Below are positions 9,751-30,223 of a stretch of 34,981 nt of DNA, in pieces. The notes under the pieces are model-generated. The model saw only the letters and a program-made list of their open reading frames with translations, made no database searches and was not told the origin of the DNA. The stretch is from Clostridia bacterium. GTDB lineage: Bacteria > Bacillota > Clostridia > Oscillospirales > CAG-382. Position 1 is the stretch's first letter. Every line of letters begins with the position of its first letter. Position numbers and translations under genes: made by a program. Location: positions 1 through 34,981 of the forward strand of contig JAFSCS010000022.1 in NCBI GenBank assembly GCA_017436675.1. The letters run 5' to 3'.

Positions 9751-9759
9751 TATTTCACC

Positions 9760-10576: not shown

Positions 10577-10605
10577 AGTATAACACATTATCTTGCAAAT
10601 TACAA
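10577..10605 (-). promoter_or_regulatory. Promoter for the SDR-PAS pair
   Basis: On the minus strand TTGTAA (10605-10600), a 17-bp spacer and TATACT (10582-10577) preceded by TGT (extended -10). A GGAG ribosome site follows close to the SDR ATG. Confidence 0.7.
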
Positions 10606-10606
10606 C

Positions 10607-10647
10607 AAAAAGATCCCGAGTTGGCTTGTGACAAACTGACTCGGGAT
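10607..10647 (-). terminator. Rho-independent terminator of the NRPS operon
   Basis: On the minus strand ATCCCGAGT (10647-10639) pairs perfectly with ACTCGGGAT (10621-10613) across a 17-nt loop and is followed by C and five T residues. It lies 7 bp beyond the GH13 stop codon. It is the first convincing terminator downstream of the promoter at 27240-27268. Confidence 0.8.
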
Positions 10648-10653
10648 AATTAT

Positions 10654-12255
10654 TTATTTTTTCACCCAGAAGGATTGGTATGGTTTTAATGAAGCACCTA
10701 TTTCATTATAGTTATTGAGCAATACTTCTGCATTCGTTGGTACACAGTCGGGGAGTGATCTTTCCTCGGGGGAGAAATTGCTGATGACGTAGACGACGCT
10801 GTCGTTACTTGTTCTTGTATAGACGCTGACGTCGTTTTCGTTCATAAGAAGCTCAAATTCTCCGTCCTTCAGGCAAGGATCGTTATTACGGATGCTGAAG
10901 AGCTTTCTGTAGAAATTCAGGACTGAGCTTTCTTTTTTCTCCTGCGCTTCGACTGTGAAGCCATCATCGATCTGTGTTTTTATCCACGGCTCACCCGTTG
11001 TAAATCCGCCGTGCTTTTCGCTCGTCCACGGGATCGGTGTTCTTCCGCAATCGCGGCTGCCGTACTGCATTTTCGCGAGAAGCTCTATTTCGGTATATTT
11101 TTCGGAGGCTTTAAGCTCATTATAGGCGTTAATAGTCTCTATATCACGGTATTCGCTCATTGAATTGAAGGTTGGATCGTGTAGTCCAAGCTCTTGGCCC
11201 TGATATATGAACGGTACTCCGCGCATACCGTAGAGCATTGATGCGAGCATCGTTGCGCTCTCATAGGGGTAATTATATCTATCGCCAAATCTGGAAAGTG
11301 CACGAGGTTGATCGTGGTTTTCCATTACCAAGACGGGATAGCTATCGTTTTTAAGCCCGTATTCCCACTTCGCGAGGATATCAACGAAAGCTTTTTTATC
11401 AAGCGGCTCGGGATCGAATTTATCACCACCCACTCTGCCAAGAAGAAGATGCTCAAACTGAAAGGTCATTGTGAGCTCTCCTCTTTTTTCGCTTGTCAGC
11501 ATTAAAGCTTGGTCGGGAGTGAGTCCCCAAGTCTCACCTACTGTCAATGCTTTATGCGGTCCGAGAGCTCTTTCGTGGAGCTCATGGAGAAACTCGTGCA
11601 AACGAGGTCCGTTTCCGCCTGCATAGGCTCTTGTGAAATCCTTCGAGATATTATTGATGACGTCACATCTGAATCCATCGACGCCCATATCAAGCCAATA
11701 GTTTATCATATCGGCGATCTCTTGGCGCACTTTCGGGTTTTCCCAATTCAGATCGGGTTGCTTTTTCGAGAAAAGATGCAAGTAATACTGTCCCGTTTGT
11801 TCGTCGTATTCCCACGCACTGCCGCCGAATGCCGCCGTCCAGCCGTTCGGCTCTTTTCCGTCGACGGGATCGCGCCAGATATAGTAGTCGCGATAGGGGT
11901 TATCCTTACTCTTACGGCTTTCGACGAACCATTCGTGCTCGTCGGAGGTATGGTTGACGACGAGATCCATCAAAAGACGTATTCCTCTTTTATGCATTCC
12001 ATCGAGCATTTCTTTGAATTCATCCAGAGTTCCGTACTCTGCGGCTATGCCTCTGTAATCAGAGATATCGTAGCCGTTATCGTCTCCGGGAGAAGGATAG
12101 CACGGCGAAAGCCAGACACAATTAACGCCGAGCGATCTTATATAGTCAAGCTTTTCAATTATTCCGCGTATATCACCGATACCGTCGCCGTTTGTATCGT
12201 TATAGCTTTTCGGATAGATTTGATACACGACTGATTCTTTATGCCATTGTTCCAT
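10654..12255 (-). CDS. GH13 alpha-glucosidase (oligo-1,6-glucosidase type)
   Basis: A 533-residue cytoplasmic glycoside hydrolase that hydrolyses the non-reducing alpha-glucosyl residue of short sugars. All GH13 regions are visible: DLVVNHTS (97-104), the nucleophile Asp198 in GFRCDVIN, the acid/base Glu241 in VGETWG and the stabiliser Asp315 in ENHDQPR. The residue after the nucleophile is Val199, which in characterised enzymes goes with alpha-1,6 (isomaltose-type) activity, while Ala or Thr there goes with alpha-1,4. A C-terminal beta domain follows. The ATG at 12255 overlaps the last 17 bp of the transferase gene and has GAGG 6 nt upstream, so it was preferred to the GTG at 12270. Its place at the end of a peptide-synthesis operon is unexplained. 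Confidence 0.92.
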   Translation of the reverse strand: MEQWHKESVVYQIYPKSYNDTNGDGIGDIRGIIEKLDYIRSLGVNCVWLSPCYPSPGDDNGYDISDYRGIAAEYGTLDEFKEMLDGMHKRGIRLLMDLVVNHTSDEHEWFVESRKSKDNPYRDYYIWRDPVDGKEPNGWTAAFGGSAWEYDEQTGQYYLHLFSKKQPDLNWENPKVRQEIADMINYWLDMGVDGFRCDVINNISKDFTRAYAGGNGPRLHEFLHELHERALGPHKALTVGETWGLTPDQALMLTSEKRGELTMTFQFEHLLLGRVGGDKFDPEPLDKKAFVDILAKWEYGLKNDSYPVLVMENHDQPRALSRFGDRYNYPYESATMLASMLYGMRGVPFIYQGQELGLHDPTFNSMSEYRDIETINAYNELKASEKYTEIELLAKMQYGSRDCGRTPIPWTSEKHGGFTTGEPWIKTQIDDGFTVEAQEKKESSVLNFYRKLFSIRNNDPCLKDGEFELLMNENDVSVYTRTSNDSVVYVISNFSPEERSLPDCVPTNAEVLLNNYNEIGASLKPYQSFWVKK

Positions 12256-12865
12256 TTTGTACCTCATCACAACATATCATTTTGATTTTTGTCGGTTTTT
12301 CGCTACACAAACAGAGGGTGTAGCCTTTTTTAAAGTCGACCATTTCAAAATAAACGTTCTTTTTTTCCCAAGCCTTTGGCAGCTTCGTTATATTATCGGG
12401 GATGATACTATACGTCCAAAAGTTATCGTCGATCCCCTCACCCGTAAATTTGACGTAGCTTTCCTTAGCGCACCATACCTCGAAAAAATTGGGTTTTACG
12501 TTCTTTTCGACGTAGCTATGCTCCTTTGGGTGAAAGAAGCGTTTTGACAGCTTCAAATAACGCTCTGCGCTATCGACATCAGTTTCTCCGCGAAGGCGCT
12601 CGTGAATTTGGAGATCGACGCCTATCTCTCGGTCAGACAACGCGATCAAGCAATAATCACCGCTATGTGTTACGGAAACGTACACGCCGATCGGTGCAGA
12701 AACGTATGGTTTTCCCTTCGGCTGTCTTTTGATCGTTACCGACACATCGTTTCCAAGATAGCTTTTTACCGATGAGGTTATCAGCTCATCGGTAGGGGTA
12801 TCGTTTTTCAGATAGACGAAAAGGCAGGTCTTCCCTGCCGTTTTCTTATACGTTTGTATATCCAT
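12239..12865 (-). CDS. Sfp-type 4'-phosphopantetheinyl transferase
   Basis: A 208-residue enzyme that moves phosphopantetheine from coenzyme A onto the serine of carrier domains. Diagnostic motifs are VSVTHSG (63-69), IGVDLQ with Mg-binding Asp84, and WCAKESYVKFTGEGI (131-145) with Glu135 and Lys139. Length and motifs fit the Sfp class that serves NRPSs and not the shorter AcpS. It should activate both NRPS T domains and the adjacent ACP. The gene starts inside the ACP gene (20-bp overlap) and its end overlaps the GH13 gene (17 bp), giving tight translational coupling. The C-terminal lobe is short compared with B. subtilis Sfp. Confidence 0.93.
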   Translation of the reverse strand: MDIQTYKKTAGKTCLFVYLKNDTPTDELITSSVKSYLGNDVSVTIKRQPKGKPYVSAPIGVYVSVTHSGDYCLIALSDREIGVDLQIHERLRGETDVDSAERYLKLSKRFFHPKEHSYVEKNVKPNFFEVWCAKESYVKFTGEGIDDNFWTYSIIPDNITKLPKAWEKKNVYFEMVDFKKGYTLCLCSEKPTKIKMICCDEVQNGTMA

Positions 12866-13088
12866 TCTTCTTCATATACTCGATGACATCCTTCACAAGA
12901 TGCATCTTCCACACGTCTCTACTCGGGATCTCAACGTCAAAATGGTCCTCGAATGCGCTGACGATATTCATTATATCGAACGAATTGAGTCCAAGATCTT
13001 TTACGAAATCCGTTTCATAGACAAGTCCTTTTTTGCCTGTAACTTTTCCAACGACCTCTTGTATGAACTGAAAAAGTTTTTCTTCCAT
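12846..13088 (-). CDS. Pathway-specific acyl carrier protein
   Basis: An 80-residue carrier with the phosphopantetheine serine at Ser36 in DLGLNSFDIMN. The LNSFD core differs from the ADSLD of the housekeeping-type ACP at 3163-3399, which fits a dedicated carrier. It lies directly between the acyl-AMP ligase (23 bp upstream) and the phosphopantetheinyl transferase, which overlaps its 3' end. The simplest role is to hold the acyl group made by the ligase and offer it to the first condensation domain of the NRPS. It could instead carry an amino acid, but no third A domain of amino-acid type is present. Confidence 0.9.
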   Translation of the reverse strand: MEEKLFQFIQEVVGKVTGKKGLVYETDFVKDLGLNSFDIMNIVSAFEDHFDVEIPSRDVWKMHLVKDVIEYMKKNGYTNV

Positions 13089-13111
13089 TGGTTATCTCCT
13101 GTTTTGCGTTA

Positions 13112-14761
13112 TTATATCAAATGACGCTTGATTTTTTGAAGTGCTGTTTTTGAAAATTCTTGTTCTCTTATATTGATCATTTGGATCTGTTGGTAAAGAG
13201 GAAGCTCTTTATTGATCTCATTGATCTCTGTTTGAAGGATCTCCAATATATCGTAGGAATTCATTCCCTCGGTTTTTTCTTTATCGGGGAAGATACTCGT
13301 TGCTACCTGAACGTCATCCGTTGATACTCCGCTAACGGCACCGTAGACGACCACGTCTTTTACAAGAGGAAGCTTTTTTATTTTTTCCTCAAGCTTTTCG
13401 GGAGAAAGCTTTTTTCCGTTTTTGAACACTATCAGGTTCTTTTTTCTTCCCGTGATATATAAAAATCCGTCTTTATCGATCTCGCCGATATCACCGGTTT
13501 TGAACCATTCACCGCTCATTGCCTCTTCGGTGAGCTCCGGCAATTTATAGTATCCCTTCATCACGTTCTTTCCGCGGACCAATATTTCTCCGTCCTCCAA
13601 TTTCACCTCACAATTGTGAGAGATCAGACCGACAGAATCGAATTTATTCATTTTATTTCTGTTCACGCTGACAAGCGGTGCACATTCGGTTATGCCATAG
13701 CCTTGAACGGTCAAGACACCCATCAAATAGAATTGCTCCATTATTTCGGGGCTCATATGTGCGCCTCCGCAAATGATCAATTCTATTGTCCCGAAGCATT
13801 TTTCCTTCAAAATATCGATTGCAGAGAATCTTTTATTTATTCCGAATTTGAGAAGTATTTTTTTGAGCTTCAGAAGCTTTTTGAGTCCTTCCGTTTTACC
13901 GAGCTCTTCCACTGTTGCCCACATTTTGCTATTGATCGTTTCAAGCATCAGCGGTACGGTCAACATGGTGTGAGGCTTTGAAAGTTGGATATCGCGCATT
14001 ACTGTTTTCAAATTTCCGTTGATATAGAGATGCGCTTTTCCGATCAACATCGAAAGCACGGAGCAGGTCAATCCATACGTATGATAAAATGGCAATGAGG
14101 TGAACGCCACATTTCCGATCGCTACGTTTGCCAACGCATCACTTGCATTCGTCAAGATAGCCTCTTGGCTGAGCATTACCGGCTTCGAATAGCTTGTTGT
14201 TCCCGAGGTGAACACTATTGATGCGGTCATATCGGGAGTTATGCTCTTTTCTACGTCCTTGTTTGCATTGCCGGACGCTATGATCGTCTTACCGTCCTCT
14301 ATGAGCTTATATATTGACGTAGCACCTTCGCTTTCATACATCGTAAACATTGGAATACTGCCGTTTTGATATTCCTTACATATGCTTTCAACAGTTTTGG
14401 AGCAAAAGAGTGCGCTGACATCTGCCATATTGAGCATTTGCTCAATGGTCTCATTAGGCTGTTCGATATCTACACAAACAGCGACTGCTCCGCAATAGGT
14501 TGCTGCAAAATAGGTCAACAACCACTCATAGCTGTTTTCACCGAGTATTGCGATATGCTTCCCGTTGAGTCCGAGAGCTATTAACTGTTCTTGAAGGCAT
14601 ACTATATCATCACGCCATTTACCGAGATCAACGCCCATCTCCTCACCCTTTCGAGTGAACCACGAGATCGCAGGCTTTTTTTCGTTTCCTATTGCCAGGT
14701 CATCGATCATATCTCTGAAGCGCAAATAGTATTTTACCTCGTTTAATGGATATTTTCTCAT
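13112..14761 (-). CDS. Acyl-AMP ligase (fatty-acid-activating ANL enzyme)
   Basis: A 549-residue adenylate-forming enzyme. The P-loop-like A3 motif is FTSGTTSYSKPV (184-195), with Ser and Pro where Gly residues are common. YGITECAPLVSVNR is the A5 motif, TGDIG and GRKKNLIVFKNGKKLSPEKLE make up A7-A8, and the catalytic C-terminal lysine is probably Lys543. The LCFA-CoA-ligase-like A5 and hinge point to a fatty or aryl acid. In this setting the acceptor is likely the ACP encoded next to it and not free CoA, so it is probably a FAAL-like loading enzyme for the lipid starter. GGAGG lies 6 nt before the ATG at 14761; the longer reading from 14803 has no such site. Confidence 0.88.
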   Translation of the reverse strand: MRKYPLNEVKYYLRFRDMIDDLAIGNEKKPAISWFTRKGEEMGVDLGKWRDDIVCLQEQLIALGLNGKHIAILGENSYEWLLTYFAATYCGAVAVCVDIEQPNETIEQMLNMADVSALFCSKTVESICKEYQNGSIPMFTMYESEGATSIYKLIEDGKTIIASGNANKDVEKSITPDMTASIVFTSGTTSYSKPVMLSQEAILTNASDALANVAIGNVAFTSLPFYHTYGLTCSVLSMLIGKAHLYINGNLKTVMRDIQLSKPHTMLTVPLMLETINSKMWATVEELGKTEGLKKLLKLKKILLKFGINKRFSAIDILKEKCFGTIELIICGGAHMSPEIMEQFYLMGVLTVQGYGITECAPLVSVNRNKMNKFDSVGLISHNCEVKLEDGEILVRGKNVMKGYYKLPELTEEAMSGEWFKTGDIGEIDKDGFLYITGRKKNLIVFKNGKKLSPEKLEEKIKKLPLVKDVVVYGAVSGVSTDDVQVATSIFPDKEKTEGMNSYDILEILQTEINEINKELPLYQQIQMINIREQEFSKTALQKIKRHLI

Positions 14762-14783
14762 ATCCTGCCTCCATTTTCTTGTT

Positions 14784-15809
14784 TTAAGAGCAATATTTCG
14801 CAATAAACTCGTCTGTACCGAGCTTATTCACCAATCTTTGCAACGCTTCGACCACGTTAGGATCGAATTGAGCTCCCTTACATCTTTCGATCTCAGCCAT
14901 CGTTTTCTCAAAGCCGAGACTTTTTCTGTAGGAACGGTTGGATATCATTGCATCAAACGAATCGGCAACGGAGGTGATCCTTGCTTCGATGCTTATTCTG
15001 TCGCCGGAAAGTCTATCGGGATATCCGTTTCCGTCGTAGCGTTCGTGATGCTGTCTGATTATTGAGAGCATCTCCTTGAAGGGAGAATATTCGCTTAGTA
15101 TTCGTTCGCCATCGACAGGATGCTTTTTTATTTCTTCAAATTCATCCGGTGTCAAGGGTCCGTTTTTCAAGAGGATAGAATCTTTTACACCGATCTTTCC
15201 GATATCGTGGAAAAGACCTGCTATTCTTATCTTTTCGACCTTCTCGTCGTCCATTCCCAGCTCCTTGGCTAAAGCTGCTGCCAGCTCGGACACGCGCTCG
15301 GAATGACCTTTTGTTTCTTTATCTCTTGTTTCGACGACGTTTCTTAAGATATCTATCGTTTGCATATATGCGCTCGAAAGACTTTCTTGATATTCTTTAA
15401 TAACTCGCATTTGACGGATCGATTTTACGCACGATTCAACGAGGAGCTCGAGTTGGTCGAATCTTTCATTTTTTTCATAGTATCCTTGGATGTCAAGCTG
15501 ACGGATAGTTTTTACGGGTGGTGCCATACTCTTATGCCCAGTCAGCAAAACGATAAAGATATCCTTGTTGAATTTTCTTACCTCTTCAACAACTTGGTCG
15601 CCACAGATCGGGCTCATCAAAAAGTCAAGAAGGAGGATATCGTATGACGATTCGCGGATACGCTCGATCGCTTTCAGCGGATCGTTTTCTACGTCGACCT
15701 CATAGCCCGAACGATTGAAATATGCTTTTATCGTTGACGTTATTATCGGGTCGTCATCAAGAGTCAATATCGATATTTGATTTTCAAAGGTTTTCTTATT
15801 TTTTCTCAT
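14784..15809 (-). CDS. Response regulator with HD-GYP output (c-di-GMP phosphodiesterase type)
   Basis: A 341-residue two-domain regulator. The receiver domain (about 11-125) has the acidic pocket DDD (18-20), phospho-acceptor Asp62, Thr90 and Lys113. The HD-GYP domain (about 150-340) has H169 in GHSERV, the HD pair 201-202 in FHDIGKIG, HH 254-255 and an intact GYP (262-264) in YDGNGYPD. Metal-ligand positions look complete, so degradation of cyclic di-GMP is likely. The start at 15809 has GGAG about 11 nt upstream and shares one base with the stop of the histidine kinase gene (TAATG). The kinase is therefore its natural partner, and phosphorylation may set phosphodiesterase activity. Confidence 0.93.
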   Translation of the reverse strand: MRKNKKTFENQISILTLDDDPIITSTIKAYFNRSGYEVDVENDPLKAIERIRESSYDILLLDFLMSPICGDQVVEEVRKFNKDIFIVLLTGHKSMAPPVKTIRQLDIQGYYEKNERFDQLELLVESCVKSIRQMRVIKEYQESLSSAYMQTIDILRNVVETRDKETKGHSERVSELAAALAKELGMDDEKVEKIRIAGLFHDIGKIGVKDSILLKNGPLTPDEFEEIKKHPVDGERILSEYSPFKEMLSIIRQHHERYDGNGYPDRLSGDRISIEARITSVADSFDAMISNRSYRKSLGFEKTMAEIERCKGAQFDPNVVEALQRLVNKLGTDEFIAKYCS

Positions 15810-17692
15810 TATTGATCTTCTCCATTTGATGCTGTTGCAGTACGAATATGTACTATATCCAACGGGATCCTGATACCAAAGGTGCTTCCTCCGCCCTCTC
15901 GGTTTTCTCCCCACATTTCTCCGTTGAATTTACCTCTGATAACCGCGTTGGACATATAGAGTCCCAAGCCTGTGCCCAGTGCTCCCTTGCTGGTTACCAT
16001 TGATTTGAATAGCTTCGCCAATACGTTTTCCGGAACGCCTGTACCTCGGTCGTTAACAAGGATCTCCAAATTTGTGTCATCGTGTTTTACGACGAGATCT
16101 ATATCTCCGCCGCCAACTTGCTTTTGAGCATAGATAGAATTGCTCAGCAGGTTTCCGATTACTTGGATCAAGTTATTTATATCACCTTGCAACGAGATCT
16201 CCTCGCTTTTATCATAGGTGATATTCAACCGACATCCGCTGTTCAAAAGCTCATGACGCATCAAAAGGGTGCATCGTTTCAGCATTTCGTCTATTGTGAA
16301 GGTTATTTTATCATCTGTACTGATGTTTGCAGCTTGACCTTTTATCGCGGTTATGATATCTGACATATATGCGGTAGATTCCTTTACCTTAGAGAACCAA
16401 TCCTTCATTTCGTCGTATATCTCGCGATAGTCGTCTGCGGTAACATCGCTGTCAGTGAGACTTTCCTCACACTCTTCAACGAGATTTTCGGCTGCCGAGA
16501 TACATCCGGAAATACTCATTATCGGTGTTTTGAGGTTGTGCGCCAATCCGCCGATCATCTGACCGAGGAAAGCGAAACGCTCTTGCTCCATCATTCGCTC
16601 TTGGCTATCCTGGAGACGTTTCATACTTTCGCGAAGCTGTGTTATATCCTTGAACAATACGACGTATCCGGTTATTTGGCCATACAGCTCCAAGGGAGAG
16701 ACGTCGACGACAAAATAATATTTTTTCGAAACGTCATTTACTGTAAACGTGACGGATTGCTCATACGAGATATGGCTTTCGCCTTCTTTACTCGAATCAA
16801 CAGCGGCTAAAAGGCTGTATATTACGTTTTTTTGGGAGCTCTCACCTATTTTCAGGCAATCGCTCAGCTTTGTTCCTTCGACTATTCCGTATTCTTTTCC
16901 AAAAAGCTCTTGGAAGCTACGGTTATATTTGACAACAAGTCCCGTTTCGCTGAGCACGATATAGCTATCTGAAATAGCGTTCAGTACGTGCTGTGTAGCT
17001 ATCGGGCTGATGTCAAGCACGTGAAGCTGGAATATTGCGATCCCGTTGAAGATCAACGTCACCATAAAGCTGAGTGGTGTTGCGGTTATCGGTATATCCT
17101 GTCCGCTGAACGTAGCAGCCACACTGACCAAAAAGGGACAGAGACCGCTTATTATAAACATCACGCACTGCTTCCAATACAAAGACGTTTTATTCTTCAA
17201 GCCGAAGCGGATCATATATACTATACCGGATATCAAGAAGATATAGTTGAAAGCACCGCTAACGAGAATATACGGTCCAAATATGATCTCACTTTTTACG
17301 ACCGAAAACTCGACGTAATACAAATGGTGGAGTGGGTTCGTCCAAGATATCAAGACTGTTATCAGCGGGAAGATGAAAAGAAGCTTCATCCACGTCTTCA
17401 TTTTCTCGTAGCCTTCGACGAAGGATATTGCGATACACAGATAGAGTGGCGACATCAACGCTCCGCCGGGTTGCATCAAGCAGTCCAAAAAGAACATCAA
17501 GTCGTTATTATCTGTTCCGACAAATCGCATTATTATCAACGGGATGACCCATGATGAATACGCCAGAGACAAAAAGAGGAACAATTTATTCAGTAGAGCG
17601 CGTTTTTTTTGCGTTTTTCTGCTCCAAACGATAAAATACGCCACTATTATCAAAGATATGGAAAATATAACTACCGAAAGAGCTGATACCAT
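15809..17692 (-). CDS. 7TM-PAS sensor histidine kinase
   Basis: A 627-residue membrane kinase. About seven hydrophobic segments fill residues 5-225, matching the histidine-kinase 7TM input region seen in Firmicutes and spirochaetes. A PAS domain follows (about 235-350: ISDSYIVLSETGLVVKYN). The dimerisation/phospho-acceptor helix has His385 in GGLAHNLKTPIMS, and a full HATPase follows (N-box NLLSNSIYA, then NDRGTGVPE, GTGLGLYMSN). The H-box reads HNLKTP and not the common HE(I/L)(R/K)(N/T)P. It starts 3 bp after the NRPS stop with GGGGAA as ribosome site and overlaps the HD-GYP regulator by one base. It may sense a membrane-soluble signal, possibly the pathway's own lipopeptide product, but that is inference. 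Confidence 0.92.
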   Translation of the reverse strand: MVSALSVVIFSISLIIVAYFIVWSRKTQKKRALLNKLFLFLSLAYSSWVIPLIIMRFVGTDNNDLMFFLDCLMQPGGALMSPLYLCIAISFVEGYEKMKTWMKLLFIFPLITVLISWTNPLHHLYYVEFSVVKSEIIFGPYILVSGAFNYIFLISGIVYMIRFGLKNKTSLYWKQCVMFIISGLCPFLVSVAATFSGQDIPITATPLSFMVTLIFNGIAIFQLHVLDISPIATQHVLNAISDSYIVLSETGLVVKYNRSFQELFGKEYGIVEGTKLSDCLKIGESSQKNVIYSLLAAVDSSKEGESHISYEQSVTFTVNDVSKKYYFVVDVSPLELYGQITGYVVLFKDITQLRESMKRLQDSQERMMEQERFAFLGQMIGGLAHNLKTPIMSISGCISAAENLVEECEESLTDSDVTADDYREIYDEMKDWFSKVKESTAYMSDIITAIKGQAANISTDDKITFTIDEMLKRCTLLMRHELLNSGCRLNITYDKSEEISLQGDINNLIQVIGNLLSNSIYAQKQVGGGDIDLVVKHDDTNLEILVNDRGTGVPENVLAKLFKSMVTSKGALGTGLGLYMSNAVIRGKFNGEMWGENREGGGSTFGIRIPLDIVHIRTATASNGEDQ

Positions 17693-17695
17693 CTG

Positions 17696-20600
17696 TTATT
17701 CCCCTTTCCAAAACTCACGAAGAACGGTTTTGACGTCGATCGGTGAGGTTTCTGCTCCGAGCATCTTCAAAGTCTCTGTTGTTTGCTCGTTTGTAACTTT
17801 TACGTTTGTATTTATTGAATTTGAATTGATGGAATTCAACAATATTGCCCAAAGAGCTCCGTCTATTTTCGAGGAGTTATCTCTCAGTGCTACATAGAAG
17901 TCGTTCATATTCACTATTTTGTTATTTTCGTTTAGTGACAAGAACACCTTCTCAAGAGTCGGAGGCTCGGGATTCATAATATGAAATACGGTATTATCCG
18001 TGTTTTTCAAAAGAACTACCTCTCTTGCACTCCTGTCGATCGGCATCAGGTCGATCCTTGAATCCTTAACGCTATTCGGGATCACGCCAAGCTGTGTATA
18101 CCCCTTCATCGTCAGATAAAACGCGTTTGTTTCGGGATCCTTTTGGAATTTGCCGTCGGTTTCTCTTCCGACAAGTCTTCCGAGTCGAAAGATCTTTGCA
18201 GAAAGTCCGCAATCGATCGCTTCAAAGACGGCTTTTTCTGCAAGATATTTACTTTTTACATAAATATTGCTTTTCCAATCTTGACCAACGTCAAGGTCGT
18301 TTTCGGTAAAGGTCACGTCATTTTGACATTCACCGCTGACGCTGCACGTTGAGATATGGTAGAATTTAGAACCGCTGATTTTTGAGATCGCGATCATATT
18401 TTCTGTGCCGCCAACGTTTGTTGCCATATACTCATCAACATTTGATGCATAATGGCGTACGTCTGCTGCGCAATGATATATCTCGTCTATTTTTGTTGCA
18501 AGATCTTCATATTCCGCTTCAGTCATTCCGAGGCTTGATGAGCTTATATCTGCTTTTATTACAGATATTCTTTTCATCATTTCTTCTGCTTTTTCCTCGC
18601 CAAAATACCAAGCGAGTGTATTTTTCATTCTTGCGACGTCGCCATCACGAAGAAGGCAGATAAGATCTTTTTCTTCCCTTTCGAGCAATTCCTTTACAAC
18701 ATGTGCTCCGAAAAAGCCCGTTGCACCGCTGACGAGTGTTTTTTTCTCGTTACAGTATTCTATAGTCTCGAGGGTTTTTCCGTCAGCGTTGAAAAATCTT
18801 ACTTGATCCGCTATCGTTTGATTTTGATAGAACTCGGAGAGAGACATTTCAAGCTTATCGTTATAGAATCTACTCAAAACGTTAAGTGCTCCCATCGACG
18901 TACCGCCGACGTTGAAGAACGACGCATTTATATCGCTGACCGATCCGCTGAGGACGGAATTCCAGACGCTCATTACGTATTCTTCATTGACATTGACCAA
19001 GCGTTTCGGCTCAGCAATAGTCGTTATTTCGTCATTATCGTCCATTATCGGTGTTTTTTCGAGTATGACGGTATGACGTTTTGATGCCATTTCACGCAAG
19101 GTCATAACATCGATCTTATTCGTTGCGGTCAAGGGCATTTTATCTAACCATATGATCCTCGAGGGGATCATATATGGCGGAAGTACTTTTTTTATTGACT
19201 CGAATATCTTCGCGTCGGTAAGTGAAGGATCGGCTGTATAGAAGGTGCAAAGCTCCATCGATCCATCCTCTTTTTTGAGTGCAACTGTTGATGCCTGGAC
19301 GTTTTCGGCAAGGTTCTCGATCGCAACGTTGATCTCGCTGAGTTCAACACGCTGACCGTTCAATTTTACCTGTTGGTCGCGCCTTCCGATATAGTCAAAT
19401 CTTCCGTCGAGTCGGAGGCGAACGATATCACCGCTGCGATACATTTTCTCGCCGCTGAACAAGATATCATCAACGAATGACTCATTTGTGAGGTCATCTC
19501 TTCCGATATATCCGCTAGACAAGCATTCACCTGCGATATACATTTCTCCGCAGCCTGTCGGGATGACAGGTGACATATTTTCGTCAAGTACATACGTCCT
19601 GGTATTTTGGAGCGGTGAGCCTATCGTAATATGCTCTCCTCTTCTCAGGTGCTCCATTGTTGTAAATACTGTCGCTTCGGTCGGTCCATACATATTCATC
19701 AGCATTCCGTCGGAATGGTCATAGAATTTATTGACAAGACGGTCTGTTACGACTTCTCCGCCGAGCAACACGATCTTTATATATTTTGCGGCTTTTTGGA
19801 ACGCCTCGTTCTCAAGACACATAGAAAGCCTTGCGGGAGTCATTTCAAAAACGCTTGTTTGGTAGGTTTCAACGAGAGATGCCAATTTCCACGGCAGCAT
19901 CATTTCTTCCTCGTCTGCAAGTACGACCGTCCTTCCGAGTGCGAGTGCTATCAACGTCTCCACGACGAAGCAATCGAACACGGAGTTAGTTGAGCAAAGG
20001 ACATTTCCTTCGATGGTGCTCAACAATGCTTTCATTTGGGAATATAGGTTGGATACAGAACGATGACGCAATTTAACGCCCTTCGGACGTCCTGTCGAGC
20101 CGGAGGTGAACAAAACGTTGCAAACGCTGTCATTTGTCGGAGCAAGACGACGTTGATCCACCGATTCACCGAGCGGAAGCAAGGTTATTTCAAACACATT
20201 CTCGTTATCGACAAGGTTTTCGGGAAGAGTTACGTTTTCATCGATCAACATCAATCTCGCGCCCGAGTCTTGCATCATATAATTGATCCTTGCCTTCGGG
20301 AAGGAGTCAAGAACGAACATATACGTGCATCCGGCCTTCAAGACACCGTACATTGCGGCGATCATATCAGGAGTACGTTTCAAGCAAAGAGCGACACACT
20401 CGCCTTTTTCGATGCCTTTTTGCTCGATATAGTCTGCAATTCTGCTCGCACGCTTTTCGATTTTTTTGAACGTTACTCTTTCACCGTGGTAGATCACGGC
20501 GGTCTCATCACGTTTCAAAGCTATTGTGCTTTGCAAAATCTTATGGATCGGGCGATTCAAAAACGGGGTGACCTTATAGTTAGGTGCATCGAGATACTTT

Positions 20601-23600
20601 TCTTGGTCTTCCGCTGTCATTATTCTGACATCGGAAAGAAGGGTATTTTTCTCCTTTATCAATTCGGACGCTATATTTCTTATACAATTAGCATAGAATT
20701 CTATCGTTTCATTTTTGAACAGACTTGTTGCATAGGAAAATCCGAGCGATACTCGATCGTTCTTTTTCGAAAGCTCCAAGATCATATCCATTTTTACACT
20801 ACCAGTATTGATGGGCATCAATTCCATTTTTACGTCACCGACAGAAAGACGATCAACGTTTACGGGACTTTGAGTCATCATTACTTGATAGAGTGCGTTT
20901 TGCTCGCCGCGAGGAAGCGAGAGCACGTTTATTATTTCTTCAAGTGTCACATGTTGGTTATCGAGCATTGAGGTGACTTCATCTGAAACCGATCTCAACC
21001 ATTCCTCCACCGTCATTTCGCCGTTCAGCTTCAATCTCAGCGGCAAGGTGTTGATAAAAGGTCCGCATACTTTTGACGTTCCGACGATATCGCGGCCTGC
21101 GACAGGTGCGCCGATGAGTATATCCTTTTTGCCTGAAACTGCTGACAAAAGCATAGCGTATGATGCTAAAAGGATAGAATATTCGGTTATACCGTTCTCT
21201 TGACAGTATGATTCCAAAGCCCTGCTCTCTTTTTCGCTGAGAAGGACTTCATAAGTTTTTCCTTTATAATCAAATTTTTTCGGTCTCGGAAGATCTCCGA
21301 CAAGCTCAAGCTTCTCGGGGAGAGACTCGAGGTGAGTCTTCCAATACTCAAGCATTTCGGTATTTTTTTGGTCTTTATTTATCGCGTCAAGGTAATCGTA
21401 ATAGTCACACTCAACGTTTGTTGCTTCTTTTTTATACGCTTTATCGATTCTTTGGAGGATTATCGGAGTCGTTAAGCCGTCGCCTATGATATGGTGACTG
21501 TCAACGAAGAGATAGCTCTCATCAAGCGGAGACGTCCATATACCTGCTCGCAACAACGGAGCTTCGGAGAGGTTGAAGGGACGAACGAAATTTTTCGATG
21601 CTTCTTCAAATGAATTACCCAAAACAGTTTCAAGCTTGAAGCAGACGTTATCAAGAATACGCGCAACGACACCGCTTTCGGTTTGGACGAAAGCTGTTCT
21701 GAAGATGGCGTCTTCTTTTATCAAGGTCACGAATGCGTTTTCAAGAAGCTCGAGATCGGGCATTTTTTCCAATTTAAACGCGCCGCACATATTATAGGAA
21801 TATCCGTCGGTATCGAGCATTGACTGAACGTAGATGCCTTGTTGAATCGCGCTCAGCGGATAGGCCGATCTTTTATTTGTTTTCACGAGGGATATTTCAA
21901 GCTTATTTCTATCGGTCGGGCGTGATATCGGATGAGGTGCTTCACCGTTGAGGTATGCGGACAGCTTCACTGCCGTTCTGCAAGCATAGAGATCGGCGAT
22001 ACGAAGCTTTTTCGACAGGCTTTCCTCGATCTCCAAAACACACTGCATTGCATTCAAGGAGTTTCCGCCATTTTTAAAGAAATCGCTTCCACCGTGGATA
22101 GAATCATTATTCAGAACTTTTTTGAATATTTCAAGGATACGCTCTGCATTTTGGCTGAGTTGATCATAAACGATCTCATCATCGAAGCACGGAGTCGGAA
22201 GCGCCGACTCATCAATTTTGCCGTTTGCATTCATCGGCATTGAATCGACGCGCAACACGAAGGACGGGATCATATATTCGGGAAGATACGTTGCCGTATG
22301 GGCAAGAAGGTCACTTTCATTGAGCTCAGTCTCGGAGCAGTAATACACTCCGATCTCCTCGGTGTCATTGACCTTACATATTTTTGCATAAGCCGACAAT
22401 ACGCCCGTAAAGGATTCGACGCAGGAAGCGATCTCTCCGAGCTCGATCCTTAAGCCGCGCAATTTGATCTGGCTGTCTGCTCTGCCGGTCAACACGATCT
22501 CGCCGTTTGGTGTCCAATACGCGATATCGCCCGTATCATAGATACGATCGTTGCTAACGAACGGGTTACGGCGGAACATTTTATCGGTCAACTCGGAATT
22601 ATTACGATATCCGTTTCCTACACATTTTCCGCCAACGAACAATCTTCCGCTGCCGCCTATCGGCAATGGGTTGAGCCATTGGTCGAGGACGTACATTTTA
22701 CAGTTGCCCATCGGAGTACCGATGGTAATTTTATCGGCGTGAGAAAGCTCCTTCATACTTACCGCAACGGTAGTTTCTGAAGGTCCATATTGATTATATA
22801 TACGTGCATTTGTGCACATTTTGAGCTTTTTGAGTAATTCTGTTGGGAAATGCTCGCCGCCACAGACGATGCTTTCCATTCTCCACATTACTTTTTTGAA
22901 GGTTTTGTTACTTAAAAGCACGCTAAGGCGAGACGGCGTCATCGAGAAAAATCCGACTGCATAGCTGTTCATAAGCTCTGCGAGGCGTTCGGGTGACTCG
23001 AGGTCGCTGTTTGTCGGGAAAACGATCGTTCTGCCGTTAACGAGCGCAACGATGCTCTCAAGCATAAATGCATCAAAGCCAACGTTACATACGGACAATA
23101 CTGCTCCGCTTGCATAGACGGATCTCATCTCTTCGCAGAGGTTCAAAAGGTTACGTTGTGTAATTTCAACGCCTTTAGGCTCGCCGGTGCTACCGGAGGT
23201 ATAGACGACGTATGCTAATTTATCGCCCTTAGACATTTCCTCACACTGAGGTCTGATAGTCGGGATACCGTATGCTTCATCGACGACGTCAAGCGTTATG
23301 ATCGTTGTATCACATTCGCCGAGGCGTTTTTTTCCGCTTTCATCGGTTATGAGCAAAGCGGCACCGCTCTTATTTAATATCGTCTTTATACGTTCCTTCG
23401 GCAAAGAGTCCGACAAAAGAATAAATGCGTGTTCTTGTTGGAGTGTGCCGAGCATAGCGGCAGGAAGATCGAATTTTCTCGGAAGCATTATTGCAACGAG
23501 CTCGTTTTCACCGTTTACTGCTTCGCTGATGGCAGAGGCAAACTGAGCGCTTCTGTGCAACAGTGTTCCGTAGGTCATACGTTCACCGTTATGAATGATC

Positions 23601-25024
23601 GCTGCTCTGTTGAGATATTTTCTGCTATTTTTAAGCACAGCTTCATAGACGGAACGATCTTCGAGATATTTTTCCGTCTTATTGAAGGTATAGAGCACCT
23701 TTTCCTTTTCTTCAAGCGACAAAACGTTGAGAGAATGGATAGGGCTATCGGGCGAGGACAAGGCTTCGCTGAGGATATGGCACAAGTTATTGTGGAGAGC
23801 AGTTATCTCGGTCTCCGTGAAATACTGCGCCAGATAATCGTAGTCTACGGCATACTGCTGGTGATCCTTCAAATTGGTGAGATGGATCGTCAGCTGTTCA
23901 GCCTGATATCCGCAATAATGCCATCTGCCGCTAAGATGGACAGAAGCATCGCGGCTTTCGTATATTTTGCTGTCTTGGTAAGAAAGGGCGATGTTGAAAA
24001 GTCTTCCTTCCTTATTTGACAATTCACATATTTTCGAATAGGGATAACGTTGGTGACGAAGGAGCTCGTACCATTTATCCATAAGATCTTCGTTAAAGGT
24101 ATTGAGAGTCCAAGAATCGTCTATCTCGTTATAGAACGGCAAGGTGGTCACGAACATACCCGTGCTTTGCTTAAACTCATAGCTTGTACGGTTAAAGATC
24201 GGAACTCCTATTGTAAATCTATCGGCGCCGCCGTTACGTTTAAAGTAGATCGCGAGAGCCATATAGAACACGGCAAAGGGCGCGACTCTTTTTTCTTCGC
24301 AGAACGAGAAGATGGCGTGGTTGATTATTTGGGGCAGCTCGAAGCTCATTCGTCTTCCGACAGGGCTTGTTGATGCTCCGCTTATATTTTTCAAGGACGA
24401 GGGCTCGCCGATGTTTTCGACTATGCTTTTCCAATAGCTTTCATCACGGCTGTATGCCTTCGAGGACATATAGTCGAGCTCCTCTTGAACGTGGAGACGG
24501 TAATCGGGTGTTTCATCGAGCGAGAGCTCGTCTCCCTTTAACAATTCGAGATAGGTCTTTCCTATCTTATTGCAGATCATTATCTGTGACCAGCCGTCAG
24601 AGATGATATGGTGCAATTTCACAAGGATGCCGCCGCTGTTTTCGGAGTCACGGAAAAGGACAAAGCGATAGAGAGGGCCGCCTTCAAGTGGGATCAGCTC
24701 TCTTGTTACAGCGTTTTCCCAATTCTCGATACCTTCCCCGCTTGTATTTGTAAAGTCATAGACGGGAAATTCCTCTTTCGAAAACGGGGCGTGGTACTGC
24801 ATCATCTCGCCATCAACGTTGACCAATTGAGTACGCAAGGACGGATCGCTTTCGACAACACGGTTGATGCTTTGCTGGAGTGCAACAAAATCAACTCTTC
24901 CTCGAATGCGTACAGTTGTACTGATGTTGTTGACAGACGTTCCCGCAAAGGCACGTTCGAGGTTCAAAATATTCAGTTGGCTTAACGATAACGGGAAAAG
25001 TTTTTCCCTTGCAATATCCTTCAC
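17696..25024 (-). CDS. Two-module NRPS with terminal thioester reductase (C-A-T-C-A-T-R)
   Basis: A 2442-residue synthetase. C1 spans about 5-440 (HHIISDG near 137). A1 is about 450-940, with YTSGSTGEPKG near 605-616, NQYGPSETT near 745 and a conserved Lys in NANGKID. T1 carries its Ser in GGNSL near 987. C2 is about 1045-1480 (HHIIGDG near 1176). A2 is about 1490-1985, with TSGSTGRPKG near 1640 and MYGPTEAT near 1779. T2 carries its Ser in GGTSM near 2042. The R domain is about 2095-2440, with GATGFFG for NADPH and a YVKSK catalytic pair near 2255. All core motifs look intact. C1 is N-terminal with no preceding module, so it probably takes the acyl group from the ACP. Reductive release would give an N-acyl dipeptide aldehyde. 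There is no epimerase or thioesterase. Translation starts at GTG with AAGGAT upstream. Confidence 0.95.
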   Translation of the reverse strand: MKDIAREKLFPLSLSQLNILNLERAFAGTSVNNISTTVRIRGRVDFVALQQSINRVVESDPSLRTQLVNVDGEMMQYHAPFSKEEFPVYDFTNTSGEGIENWENAVTRELIPLEGGPLYRFVLFRDSENSGGILVKLHHIISDGWSQIMICNKIGKTYLELLKGDELSLDETPDYRLHVQEELDYMSSKAYSRDESYWKSIVENIGEPSSLKNISGASTSPVGRRMSFELPQIINHAIFSFCEEKRVAPFAVFYMALAIYFKRNGGADRFTIGVPIFNRTSYEFKQSTGMFVTTLPFYNEIDDSWTLNTFNEDLMDKWYELLRHQRYPYSKICELSNKEGRLFNIALSYQDSKIYESRDASVHLSGRWHYCGYQAEQLTIHLTNLKDHQQYAVDYDYLAQYFTETEITALHNNLCHILSEALSSPDSPIHSLNVLSLEEKEKVLYTFNKTEKYLEDRSVYEAVLKNSRKYLNRAAIIHNGERMTYGTLLHRSAQFASAISEAVNGENELVAIMLPRKFDLPAAMLGTLQQEHAFILLSDSLPKERIKTILNKSGAALLITDESGKKRLGECDTTIITLDVVDEAYGIPTIRPQCEEMSKGDKLAYVVYTSGSTGEPKGVEITQRNLLNLCEEMRSVYASGAVLSVCNVGFDAFMLESIVALVNGRTIVFPTNSDLESPERLAELMNSYAVGFFSMTPSRLSVLLSNKTFKKVMWRMESIVCGGEHFPTELLKKLKMCTNARIYNQYGPSETTVAVSMKELSHADKITIGTPMGNCKMYVLDQWLNPLPIGGSGRLFVGGKCVGNGYRNNSELTDKMFRRNPFVSNDRIYDTGDIAYWTPNGEIVLTGRADSQIKLRGLRIELGEIASCVESFTGVLSAYAKICKVNDTEEIGVYYCSETELNESDLLAHTATYLPEYMIPSFVLRVDSMPMNANGKIDESALPTPCFDDEIVYDQLSQNAERILEIFKKVLNNDSIHGGSDFFKNGGNSLNAMQCVLEIEESLSKKLRIADLYACRTAVKLSAYLNGEAPHPISRPTDRNKLEISLVKTNKRSAYPLSAIQQGIYVQSMLDTDGYSYNMCGAFKLEKMPDLELLENAFVTLIKEDAIFRTAFVQTESGVVARILDNVCFKLETVLGNSFEEASKNFVRPFNLSEAPLLRAGIWTSPLDESYLFVDSHHIIGDGLTTPIILQRIDKAYKKEATNVECDYYDYLDAINKDQKNTEMLEYWKTHLESLPEKLELVGDLPRPKKFDYKGKTYEVLLSEKESRALESYCQENGITEYSILLASYAMLLSAVSGKKDILIGAPVAGRDIVGTSKVCGPFINTLPLRLKLNGEMTVEEWLRSVSDEVTSMLDNQHVTLEEIINVLSLPRGEQNALYQVMMTQSPVNVDRLSVGDVKMELMPINTGSVKMDMILELSKKNDRVSLGFSYATSLFKNETIEFYANCIRNIASELIKEKNTLLSDVRIMTAEDQEKYLDAPNYKVTPFLNRPIHKILQSTIALKRDETAVIYHGERVTFKKIEKRASRIADYIEQKGIEKGECVALCLKRTPDMIAAMYGVLKAGCTYMFVLDSFPKARINYMMQDSGARLMLIDENVTLPENLVDNENVFEITLLPLGESVDQRRLAPTNDSVCNVLFTSGSTGRPKGVKLRHRSVSNLYSQMKALLSTIEGNVLCSTNSVFDCFVVETLIALALGRTVVLADEEEMMLPWKLASLVETYQTSVFEMTPARLSMCLENEAFQKAAKYIKIVLLGGEVVTDRLVNKFYDHSDGMLMNMYGPTEATVFTTMEHLRRGEHITIGSPLQNTRTYVLDENMSPVIPTGCGEMYIAGECLSSGYIGRDDLTNESFVDDILFSGEKMYRSGDIVRLRLDGRFDYIGRRDQQVKLNGQRVELSEINVAIENLAENVQASTVALKKEDGSMELCTFYTADPSLTDAKIFESIKKVLPPYMIPSRIIWLDKMPLTATNKIDVMTLREMASKRHTVILEKTPIMDDNDEITTIAEPKRLVNVNEEYVMSVWNSVLSGSVSDINASFFNVGGTSMGALNVLSRFYNDKLEMSLSEFYQNQTIADQVRFFNADGKTLETIEYCNEKKTLVSGATGFFGAHVVKELLEREEKDLICLLRDGDVARMKNTLAWYFGEEKAEEMMKRISVIKADISSSSLGMTEAEYEDLATKIDEIYHCAADVRHYASNVDEYMATNVGGTENMIAISKISGSKFYHISTCSVSGECQNDVTFTENDLDVGQDWKSNIYVKSKYLAEKAVFEAIDCGLSAKIFRLGRLVGRETDGKFQKDPETNAFYLTMKGYTQLGVIPNSVKDSRIDLMPIDRSAREVVLLKNTDNTVFHIMNPEPPTLEKVFLSLNENNKIVNMNDFYVALRDNSSKIDGALWAILLNSINSNSINTNVKVTNEQTTETLKMLGAETSPIDVKTVLREFWKGE

Positions 25025-25051
25025 TATCGCTATCCTTCTTTCATATTTCTT

Positions 25052-25081
25052 GAAAAAATAATGATCGTTATGCTTCGATCA
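25052..25081 (-). terminator. Weak terminator-like hairpin between the cyclase and NRPS genes
   Basis: On the minus strand TGATCG (25081-25076) pairs with CGATCA (25067-25062) over an 8-nt loop that contains the cyclase stop codon, and TTATTTTTT follows. The stem is only 6 bp, so read-through is expected; it could act as an attenuator or as an mRNA processing/stability element. Confidence 0.35.
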
Positions 25082-25970
25082 GCTCGAAGCGGTTTCCTCC
25101 GTTTTGCTTTGCGGAGTACATTGTTTTATCTGCTATACAAAACAGCTCGTCATATATAAGATGCGGTGTTTTTGCCATTACCACACCGACAGAACAGCTC
25201 ATTTCCCCCTTCGGGATAGTTTCGGAAGCCATTTCCGACACCAAATCAACTATTTGAGCACATTTCTTTTTTACGATCTCAATATCCTCTACGTCCTTCA
25301 TCAAGACGAGAAATTCATCGCCGCCTATACGACCGACGATATCGTTATTTCTGAAAAGTCTTTTGAAGATCGAGGACATCATCACCAATACCTCATCGCC
25401 TACGATGTGACCGTAATTGTCGTTGATCTTTTTGAAGCCATCGATATCGATTATCATCATTGCAAAGCTTCCGCTTTCGTGAGAGATATATTCTTCACAA
25501 AGATCGCGAGTGGTTTTTGTATTATAGAGCATAGTCAACGAGTCGCAAGAAGCGCGAGCAGTCGTTTCGGTCAATTTTTGTTCGTATTCGGCAAGTCTTG
25601 TTTTTTGGGTATCGTAGATAGTCTTAAACTTTGATATTACGACGAACAGTCCGACAAGATACGTTTTTCCGTCGACAGTCGTGCGCAAGCCTCGGTTCAA
25701 CACCCAGCTTCCGTCACGTGTCATCAGCATCAACTCTATCTCATCACCGTTATTAAGCTGGACGAGCAGATCTCTTTTCAAACGAGGTGCATCGTTACTC
25801 AAGATAACGTCAAACAAGCTCCTTTTATCAAGCTTTTCGCAATCGCAGATCCCGAGTATCTTTTTTACACCGTCATTTTTGCCATCAAAGATGACGTCTT
25901 CGCCGTCAAACGAACACAAATACTGTGCAAAAAGCTCACTATTTAATTGTCCGATGACTCTCTTATCCAT
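25068..25970 (-). CDS. Diguanylate cyclase with N-terminal PAS-like domain
   Basis: A 300-residue soluble protein that should make cyclic di-GMP from two GTP. The N-terminal half (about 10-115) is PAS-like (MTRDGSWVLNRGLRTTVDGKTYLVGLFVVI). A short coiled linker (115-140) joins it to a full GGDEF domain. SCDSLTMLYN starts that domain, DIDGFKKINDNYGH carries the metal/GTP site, and the active site is an intact GGDEF at 216-220. The inhibitory I-site RxxD is present as RNND (207-210), exactly five residues before GGDEF, so product inhibition is likely. The ATG at 25970 has AAGGAG upstream and lies inside the end of the BTAD regulator gene (28-bp overlap). The NRPS follows after 43 bp. Confidence 0.93.
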   Translation of the reverse strand: MDKRVIGQLNSELFAQYLCSFDGEDVIFDGKNDGVKKILGICDCEKLDKRSLFDVILSNDAPRLKRDLLVQLNNGDEIELMLMTRDGSWVLNRGLRTTVDGKTYLVGLFVVISKFKTIYDTQKTRLAEYEQKLTETTARASCDSLTMLYNTKTTRDLCEEYISHESGSFAMMIIDIDGFKKINDNYGHIVGDEVLVMMSSIFKRLFRNNDIVGRIGGDEFLVLMKDVEDIEIVKKKCAQIVDLVSEMASETIPKGEMSCSVGVVMAKTPHLIYDELFCIADKTMYSAKQNGGNRFELIEA

Positions 25971-27166
25971 TGATAGTTCTCCTTGTCGTCCGGTTCTAAC
26001 GGGCACACTTCATAGCGAAGTAATGCGTCGGCACGGGTGAATTTTTTATAATATGATTTGATTATTCTTTCACATACCATACAACTGTTTTCATAGTTGG
26101 CACGCGGAAGCATTATTACGTATTGTGACACACTGCACTTCGCTGCAGAGTCTCCTCTTCTCAGTGATTGGCGGATCACGTTCTCGACGTTCGGCATCAC
26201 ACGGTCAAGCTTTCTCAAGGAAAGCTCTCCATCCTTGTCTACGGCGGAGATCAGGGCGATATGAACGGCGATCCCGTTTCTCATTACGGAACGAGCCATT
26301 GAATAGTAGAGAACTCTGAAAAAGTCATATTCACAGATCAATGCGCCTGTTTTTTCCGACGATTCCTTCAATTGTTCTTGAAGTGTACTGATAGAGATTG
26401 TATGTGAGTTATTGGTCTTTATTGCTTCGTGGTACAATGCGCGAGTCTCTTCGGAAGGGATCACTCCCAGCTCGGAAAGAAGGCGTTCGCTGAGCTTTTG
26501 ATATACCTCGATCGCTTTTTTCTGCTTTCCGCAAGCGAGATAGGTCTGCATACACAAGCAATGGACCTCTTCGTTATATGATTCGATGTTGGTGGCGATA
26601 CGACAAAATGCCAACGCTTCATCAAAGCGTTTTTCCTCGATCATTCGAGGAACGACATTACGAAGGCAATCAATGAATACGTTATGGAAATACGCAGAGA
26701 TCGGGATCACCCAAAACTCAGACGACATTTTGTCGAGAAAGTCGCCTTCATACAGCTTTAATGCTTCAACGACTTTTTCAAGCTCAAGAGTGTCGGCATC
26801 ACTGATCACGCTCTCAAAGGTATCGCAATCGATCTCAACTCTGCACTCGGGATTCCACATATAGCCGTCGTGAGAGCAGATTATCAGCTGTTTGCCGGCA
26901 CCGCTCCAAAGGTAGTCAAGCTCTGCTCTTGCTCTATATAAAAGAGTTTTCAATGCACCACTCGGGTTGACGCCTTTATCCTCGTCGCCCCAGATCAGCT
27001 CTATAAGCTCCTTTTGTTTTACAATGCGTTCACGATGGTATACCAAATATGCGATCAACGACCACACCTTTTTTGATCTGTTGGCAGTATTCGAGATACT
27101 GTTCTTTCCGTCGCTAATTGTAAAATCTCCAAACATTTTTACCTTCAGAGACATCATTGACACCAC
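25943..27166 (-). CDS. BTAD/SARP-type regulator with degenerate GGDEF-like C-terminus
   Basis: A 407-residue probable transcription factor and first gene of the NRPS operon. Residues 6-105 form an OmpR/SARP-type winged helix (MFGDFTIS, KKVWSLIAYLVYHRERIVKQKELIELIW, ALKTLLYRARAELD). Residues 110-250 are the helical bacterial transcriptional activation domain (TPR-like; ALKLYEGDFL, AIEVYQKLSERLLSELGVIPSEETRALY). Residues 275-390 look like a relic GGDEF domain. RRGD (336-339), five residues, then SVSQY (345-349) and VIML align with RNND-x5-GGDEF-LVLM of the cyclase encoded next door. It is therefore probably catalytically dead but may bind c-di-GMP at RxxD. Start choice is uncertain: GTG at 27166 is 5 nt from GAGG, while ATG at 27157 is 14 nt away. 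Confidence 0.85.
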   Translation of the reverse strand: MVSMMSLKVKMFGDFTISDGKNSISNTANRSKKVWSLIAYLVYHRERIVKQKELIELIWGDEDKGVNPSGALKTLLYRARAELDYLWSGAGKQLIICSHDGYMWNPECRVEIDCDTFESVISDADTLELEKVVEALKLYEGDFLDKMSSEFWVIPISAYFHNVFIDCLRNVVPRMIEEKRFDEALAFCRIATNIESYNEEVHCLCMQTYLACGKQKKAIEVYQKLSERLLSELGVIPSEETRALYHEAIKTNNSHTISISTLQEQLKESSEKTGALICEYDFFRVLYYSMARSVMRNGIAVHIALISAVDKDGELSLRKLDRVMPNVENVIRQSLRRGDSAAKCSVSQYVIMLPRANYENSCMVCERIIKSYYKKFTRADALLRYEVCPLEPDDKENYQWIRESSDN

Positions 27167-27207
27167 ACCACCCTCAAGTGTTAATAATTCCTTCGTTTTT
27201 TTACATA

Positions 27208-27221
27208 GGGGACACTACCCC
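27208..27221 (-). promoter_or_regulatory. GC hairpin in the leader of the BTAD regulator mRNA
   Basis: GGGG (27208-27211) and CCCC (27218-27221) flank 6 nt, an isolated GC-only stem in very AT-rich DNA. It lies about 12-25 nt after the predicted transcription start and about 40 nt before the start codon. No T-run follows it, so it is not a terminator. It could be an operator or a mRNA stabiliser. Confidence 0.4.
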
Positions 27222-27239
27222 AATATGAATACTATGTTG

Positions 27240-27268
27240 AGTATATCACAATTATTTCTATTTTACAA
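27240..27268 (-). promoter_or_regulatory. Main promoter of the NRPS operon
   Basis: On the minus strand TTGTAA (27268-27263), a 17-bp spacer and TATACT (27245-27240) with TGA before it (extended -10). The predicted start near 27233 gives a leader of about 67 nt. Confidence 0.75.
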
Positions 27269-27330: not shown

Positions 27331-27367
27331 TTAGTTTACATAAATTCAACTTTAGTTTACATAAATT
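27331..27367. repeat. Two exact 16-bp direct repeats 21 bp apart, candidate SARP/BTAD operator
   Basis: TTAGTTTACATAAATT occurs at 27331-27346 and again at 27352-27367, with a start-to-start distance of 21 bp, or two helical turns. OmpR/SARP-type winged helices bind direct repeats spaced by whole turns near -35 boxes. The second copy ends 16 bp before an extended -10 at 27384-27389 that has no -35 of its own. Confidence 0.65.
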
Positions 27368-27441: not shown

Positions 27442-27476
27442 AATATGAAAATTTATGTTGTTTTATGAGGTTATTT

Positions 27477-30214: not shown

Positions 30215-30223
30215 GTCTTTTTT

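Follow-up and report, generated by a model that had tools for sequence, protein, structure and literature searches.

A clostridial nonribosomal peptide synthetase operon that may signal through a co-exchanged sensor kinase and a c-di-GMP phosphodiesterase

The stretch of DNA analysed here (the window) is contig JAFSCS010000022.1 of assembly GCA_017436675.1, 34,981 nucleotides from a Clostridia bacterium of the Oscillospirales (CAG-382); the assembly is 1.54 Mb long and 54% complete. The window carries an operon in which a nonribosomal peptide synthetase (NRPS) stands between genes for synthesis and breakdown of cyclic di-guanosine monophosphate (c-di-GMP). Nine minus-strand genes were recovered with Pfam. 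They encode, in order, a BTAD regulator, a GGDEF protein, the NRPS, a seven-transmembrane (7TM) histidine kinase, a REC-HD-GYP protein, an acyl ligase, an acyl carrier protein (ACP), an Sfp-type phosphopantetheinyl transferase (PPTase) and a GH13 glycosidase. An earlier note on this DNA had named the same nine families, and its overlaps and gaps agree exactly with the junctions that we recomputed from gene starts with ribosome-site support (in gene order, -28, 43, 3, -1, 22, 23, -20 and -17). Its promoter and terminator also hold. The promoter (TTGTAA-17-TATACT, 27240-27268, minus strand), located by sequence scan, has both hexamers and an extended -10, and counterparts precede the BTAD gene in three relatives (L031, L035 and L049; L numbers label loci). 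The intrinsic terminator (10607-10647, minus strand), whose hairpin a simple scan had overlooked, was seen in a folding analysis with a z-score (-19.2 kcal/mol, z -5.0); a U-run comes directly behind it. The nine genes are likely, as predicted, a single transcript.

The NRPS (17696-25024, minus strand) is a 2442-aa protein with homologs in 23 clusters. Its architecture is C-A-T-C-A-T-R, as the note had it, with two Condensation, two AMP-binding and two PP-binding domains in Pfam and a terminal NAD_binding_4. Release is predicted to be reductive, yielding an aldehyde. Three further minus-strand genes bear on acylation: the acyl ligase (13112-14761, AMP-binding), which is present in 23 of 23 clusters and would supply a fatty acyl starter, the ACP (12846-13088, PP-binding) and the Sfp-type 4'-PPTase (12239-12865, ACPS). 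The product would be an N-acyl dipeptide aldehyde or a cyclised form of it. Aldehydes made by gut NRPSs, where the pyrazinones of Fischbach and co-workers are named beside ruminopeptin, are discussed mainly as protease inhibitors. The window resembles the N-acyl dipeptide aldehyde family in having a two-module NRPS with a terminal reductase, and its acyl ligase, ACP and PPTase are consistent with N-acylation; ruminopeptin is a member of that family (PMC12327764). The aureusimine synthetase AusA of Staphylococcus shares the A-T-C-A-T-R core and an adjoining PPTase. The window NRPS differs from it in an additional N-terminal C domain and in the signalling genes, and scores 1063 bits against the AusA NCBIfam equivalog, below the family cut-off of 2500.

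The two genes that follow the NRPS encode a kinase and a response regulator. The kinase (15809-17692, minus strand) consists of a HisKA_7TM sensor (Pfam, 6.7e-30), a PAS domain and a kinase core with an AHNLKTP H-box. Motif alignment finds its H-, N- and G-boxes all conserved. The REC-HD-GYP response regulator (14784-15809, minus strand; Pfam HD_5 and Response_reg) is a predicted c-di-GMP phosphodiesterase that keeps HD, HHERYDGNGYP and the REC Asp/Lys in the alignment. When one genome was scanned for each species, 23 homologous clusters could be read past the NRPS (NRPS identity 36-64%), in Eisenbergiella, Diplocloster, Massiliimalia, Oscillibacter-like, Lachnospiraceae and Oscillospiraceae genomes. 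The order NRPS, kinase, REC-HD-GYP, acyl ligase is kept in all 23. The ACP follows in 22 of the 22 that extend that far, and the PPTase in 18. Across the clusters the phosphotransfer motifs (AHNLKTP, REC Asp/Lys) and the catalytic motifs (HD, HHE-GYP and GG[DE]EF with RxxD) are intact, and REC is the most conserved part (60-88% identity to that of the window). Distant HD-GYP copies bear an additional DUF3369 domain; these extra ~150 aa were considered as a hidden GGDEF domain and rejected, since they match DUF3369, which we read as GAF-like. The association between the NRPS and c-di-GMP is not a matter of chance: in close homologs kinase and HD-GYP never part from the synthetase, as expected of a dedicated link. 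In the open-access literature we found no report of an NRPS-kinase-HD-GYP association, and no mention of a co-conserved kinase and HD-GYP beside the gut NRPS aldehyde synthetases.

The other signalling genes have a narrower distribution. The PAS-GGDEF diguanylate cyclase (25068-25970, minus strand; Pfam GGDEF, 1.3e-34) has an intact RNND I-site, GG[DE]EF motif and set of Mg/GTP residues in the motif alignment; a PAS domain is matched in 6 of 8 homologs, the window copy itself having no PAS match. A GGDEF gene lies upstream of the NRPS in 8 of the 23 clusters. The BTAD gene overlaps it in five of those eight, and a sixth (L051) has a divergent copy downstream. The HD-GYP and kinase are the ancient part of the system, to which GGDEF and BTAD have been added in the window's subclade. 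The earlier note's picture of a maker and a breaker flanking the synthetase stands for this subclade; the rest of the 23 have the breaker and kinase alone.

The BTAD regulator (25943-27154, minus strand; Pfam BTAD, 5.8e-20) is a transcription factor with a winged helix-turn-helix, BTAD and a degenerate GGDEF domain at its C-terminus. The last 130 residues match diguanylate cyclase 3ign in a profile comparison (3e-8), and a model of this region (mean pLDDT 80) gives VIA Z of 10.2-10.7 to GGDEF domains that include 3ign and the c-di-GMP-bound 5euh. The active-site motif is replaced by SVSQY and the I-site RRGD is kept. RxxD stands at the canonical distance in 7 of 7 cluster homologs and in all aligned homologs from other loci. 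Receptors of the PopA and CdgG type likewise combine a GGDEF fold, a dead active site and a kept RxxD; the window's domain differs from them in being fused to a DNA-binding regulator of BTAD/SARP type. The BTAD protein is thus a likely candidate c-di-GMP receptor. Proteins that join BTAD to a degenerate GGDEF-fold C-terminus with conserved RxxD also occur in many clostridial genera away from NRPS genes (L156-L174), and they may represent an unrecognised family of c-di-GMP-reading transcription factors.

The earlier note read this arrangement as c-di-GMP made and broken within one operon for dedicated local control of product formation. We hold that reading to be possible and somewhat doubtful. 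In its favour, GGDEF and HD-GYP share the operon and are the sole such enzymes in several genomes, and a BTAD regulator with a receptor domain of c-di-GMP type heads the transcript. Each of the genomes with L044, L031, L035, L048 and L051 encodes exactly one GGDEF protein, that of the operon, and lacks EAL; all of them but the genome with L051 have no HD-GYP outside the operon either. In the window's assembly, the operon likewise supplies the single intact GGDEF and the single HD-GYP, beside which there is an EAL protein with a degenerate GGDEF. Eisenbergiella tayi, in contrast, has 47 GGDEF matches. Against local control, most homologous clusters lack GGDEF and BTAD, and it therefore cannot be the basic function. 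Nor does a c-di-GMP riboswitch precede the NRPS in the window or at any of 17 homologous loci that were scanned, where the only riboswitch was for fluoride (L047). The six genomes searched for c-di-GMP-I riboswitches, the window's and those of its five nearest relatives with the cluster, yielded none. PilZ receptors were sought in seven genomes, among them the window's, and none was found.

Beyond the close clusters, a REC profile matches 47 of 391 genomes of the class. In 19 of 40 contexts the HD-GYP gene has both a kinase and an NRPS as neighbours, and the synthetases there include two-module NRPSs, one-module C-A-T-R enzymes (L118, L124) and a C-A-T-TE enzyme (L122). One further one-module NRPS (L121, 6500-7714) has a final stretch of 400 residues without a match to any release-domain family, which may be an off-loading domain of an unknown kind.

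Evidence on how synthetase and kinase relate comes from the genus g165, where the response regulator occurs in 78 of 98 genomes. We read 60 further g165 loci. NRPS and kinase could both be typed at 53 loci: 35 pair a one-module NRPS with a HAMP sensor, 18 pair a two-module NRPS with a 7TM sensor, and none is mixed (Fisher p 1.5e-14, relatedness ignored). Another 12 loci lack both NRPS and kinase. The three remaining loci comprise two with a 7TM kinase and a missing or broken NRPS, and one with a broken NRPS and a kinase fragment. The exchange takes place at one syntenic locus with flanks that are 84-97% identical. On the response-regulator tree, parsimony counts 12 type changes, and at least five independent pairs lie on well-supported branches, all concordant (p 0.06 for the five pairs alone). 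The pair L175 and L176 illustrates the pattern. Their upstream neighbours are 84-88% identical, their downstream neighbour 96%, their HD-GYP proteins 94% and their kinase cores 84-85%, with unrelated sensors and NRPSs of 2478 versus 1409 aa. In 5 of 5 pairs, DNA identity rises abruptly 30-60 nt ahead of the H-box, within the linker NQETLMExERLASLGQ. NRPS and kinase sensor have been swapped as a block.

Within types, NRPS and sensor distances also correlate (r = 0.98 and 0.92; partial correlation given the response regulator, 0.96 and 0.90). The corresponding values for NRPS and kinase core, given the response regulator, are 0.36 and 0.30. Mean sensor identity is 33-48%, comparable to the diversity of the synthetase, and that of kinase and response regulator is 75-81%. 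The comparative evidence for coupling between synthetase and sensor is strong. It points mainly the opposite way from the earlier note's claim that c-di-GMP controls product formation, from product to c-di-GMP, though feedback through BTAD is possible.

We therefore favour, as moderately probable, a reading in which the kinase has the NRPS product as its autoinducer-like ligand, and the operon elaborates a widespread clostridial three-gene module of NRPS, kinase and REC-HD-GYP that lowers c-di-GMP. Also in favour of this reading are the recurrence of the trio with one-module synthetases, the status of the operon's GGDEF as the sole one in five relatives and of its HD-GYP in four of them, and the lack of EAL proteins and c-di-GMP-I riboswitches there. 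The NRPS would be the signal synthase and, with the acyl ligase, ACP and PPTase, would make the acylated dipeptide aldehyde, open or cyclised. That compound, or one closely related to it, would bind the kinase sensor and activate or inhibit the kinase. To judge from the families and intact residues, the kinase would phosphorylate REC and so turn on HD-GYP, which would hydrolyse c-di-GMP. In the window's subclade, PAS-GGDEF would be the module's own source of c-di-GMP, and the BTAD-degenerate GGDEF protein would read c-di-GMP and feed back on the operon, perhaps also on the divergent pilus operon described below. A further proposal is that NRPS and sensor together are a specificity cassette that can be exchanged, in effect a nonribosomal pherotype, on a conserved kinase core and HD-GYP, and that c-di-GMP is private to the pathway in the window's lineage; for this the case seems to us evenly balanced.

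Several observations weigh against these proposals. HD-GYP orthologs also occur without an NRPS, for example in families f78 and f64, and in f78 some of them adjoin a GGDEF-HD-GYP gene; exclusivity of the pair to NRPSs was accordingly rejected. Five NRPS-R clusters of ~26% identity, from the window's family and order, lack the kinase/HD-GYP pair, so that the idea that all R-terminated clusters carry it was rejected too. Of the two c-di-GMP enzymes that the earlier note would look for in other NRPS-R clusters, HD-GYP is kept in 23 of 23 close clusters and GGDEF in 8. The association recurs over several architectures and is neither universal nor exclusive. In the window's clade, moreover, the NRPS correlates equally with sensor, kinase core and ligase. 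Extension to the window rests on homology, because co-exchange is seen in g165, while the operon of the window's clade travels whole. The genomes are mostly incomplete metagenome-assembled genomes; chance loss as the cause of the sole-GGDEF status is unlikely, since five genomes agree. Finally, it is the R domain, which adjoins the kinase, that correlates best with the sensor, and linkage therefore carries part of the NRPS-sensor correlation.

This last point would suit a different explanation, in which the kinase responds to something unconnected with the product (host, diet or membrane stress), c-di-GMP only sets when a protease-inhibitor metabolite is expressed or exported, and covariation reflects neighbourhood. 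Recombination of unlike cassettes must also resolve in the first homologous stretch, which is the kinase core. Such an account leaves unexplained the diversity of the sensor, which on a conserved core matches that of the synthetase, the change of sensor fold with synthetase type in 53 of 53 loci, and the joint loss of kinase and synthetase. We consider it unlikely. The product could instead be sensed by its maker for self-protection or flux control, as feedback only and not as a signal between cells. A feedback sensor would be useful if the products are reactive protease inhibitors. The output, however, is a second-messenger phosphodiesterase and not a pump or repressor, and exchange of the pherotype kind is characteristic of communication systems (PMC4008528). 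We judge this self-sensing account rather improbable, short of dismissing it.

Signalling between cells has parallels to the reading we prefer. RpfC and RpfG are the membrane sensor kinase and the REC-HD-GYP c-di-GMP phosphodiesterase of Xanthomonas Rpf/DSF signalling (PMC6337780). Like RpfF-RpfC-RpfG, the operon places a synthase of a small lipid-like molecule next to a membrane sensor kinase and a REC-HD-GYP protein with intact catalytic residues. However, the enoyl-CoA hydratase family of RpfF is not among its genes, the synthase being an NRPS; the window kinase has only 7TM, PAS, HisKA and HATPase, not the REC and HPT of an RpfC-type hybrid; sensors are 7TM or HAMP; and the hosts are Clostridia. 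Because synthase and kinase types differ, the operon is not a member of Rpf/DSF, though this is its closest functional parallel. In comQXP, the N-terminal part of ComP is variable and the cytoplasmic part conserved (PMC4008528). The g165 loci resemble comQXPA and agr pherotypes in that synthase and receptor sensor covary while kinase core and regulator are conserved. Those systems use a ribosomal peptide signal and a DNA-binding regulator; here the product is nonribosomal and the output is HD-GYP. The scheme of small-molecule signal, kinase and HD-GYP is itself known, and the operon would be an unusual variation on it.

Other features adjoin the operon. The GH13 glycosidase (10654-12255, minus strand; Pfam Alpha-amylase) is present and co-oriented at the operon's end, as the note had described. 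Its membership of the pathway was rejected, as 0 of 23 homologous clusters hold it, and it is probably not part of the system. Directly past the terminator lies an SDR-PAS gene pair (9394-10551). Its promoter (10577-10605, minus strand) has hexamers identical to those of the NRPS operon, TTGTAA-17-TATACT with TG, and the pair is possibly co-regulated with it. Four close homologous loci encode a ~140-aa protein of an unknown family after the PPTase (L044 21006-21434, L031 15852-16268, L033 14356-14763 and L035 23097-23513), missing at that place in the window. In family f64, what precedes the kinase and HD-GYP genes in place of an NRPS is a 543-aa protein without a Pfam match (L119 3854-5485, L117 4176-5807 and L149 from 3147).

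Divergent from the BTAD gene runs a type IV pilus-like operon (27465-32846, plus strand), identified by profile matches. It is preceded by a perfect TTGACA-17-TATAAT promoter (27413-27441) and encodes a transglutaminase-like protein, PilC/GspF, a pilin-like protein and a PilT/PilU ATPase (389.6 bits against a cut-off of 319). Pilus genes adjoin the cluster in four relatives (L035, L044, L048 and L049), and the operon is a possible co-regulated target. Between the two divergent promoters, the direct repeat TTTATGTAAACTAA occurs in two copies at 21-bp spacing (27331-27365, minus strand); as a regulator site it was rejected, since it was not found before the homologs' BTAD genes. The transglutaminase-like protein (27465-29129, plus strand) contains a long tandem repeat of SKDESVGTP type. 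The pilus operon is adjoined by the gene for an LPXTG cell-wall protein (32908-34704, minus strand), which has four Cna_B domains and a proline-rich, extensin-like region.

The conserved kinase and second-messenger output beside the synthetase suggest both a native role, signalling, and a receptor for gut NRPS aldehydes. If the proposed scheme is true, Clostridia would use NRPSs as autoinducer synthases and read lipopeptide aldehydes as a fall in c-di-GMP. Quorum sensing would then include a class whose chemical code is modular and swappable, and c-di-GMP would be an example of a second messenger that serves a single natural-product pathway. The BTAD-degenerate GGDEF family, if borne out, would give Clostridia a c-di-GMP-reading transcription factor.

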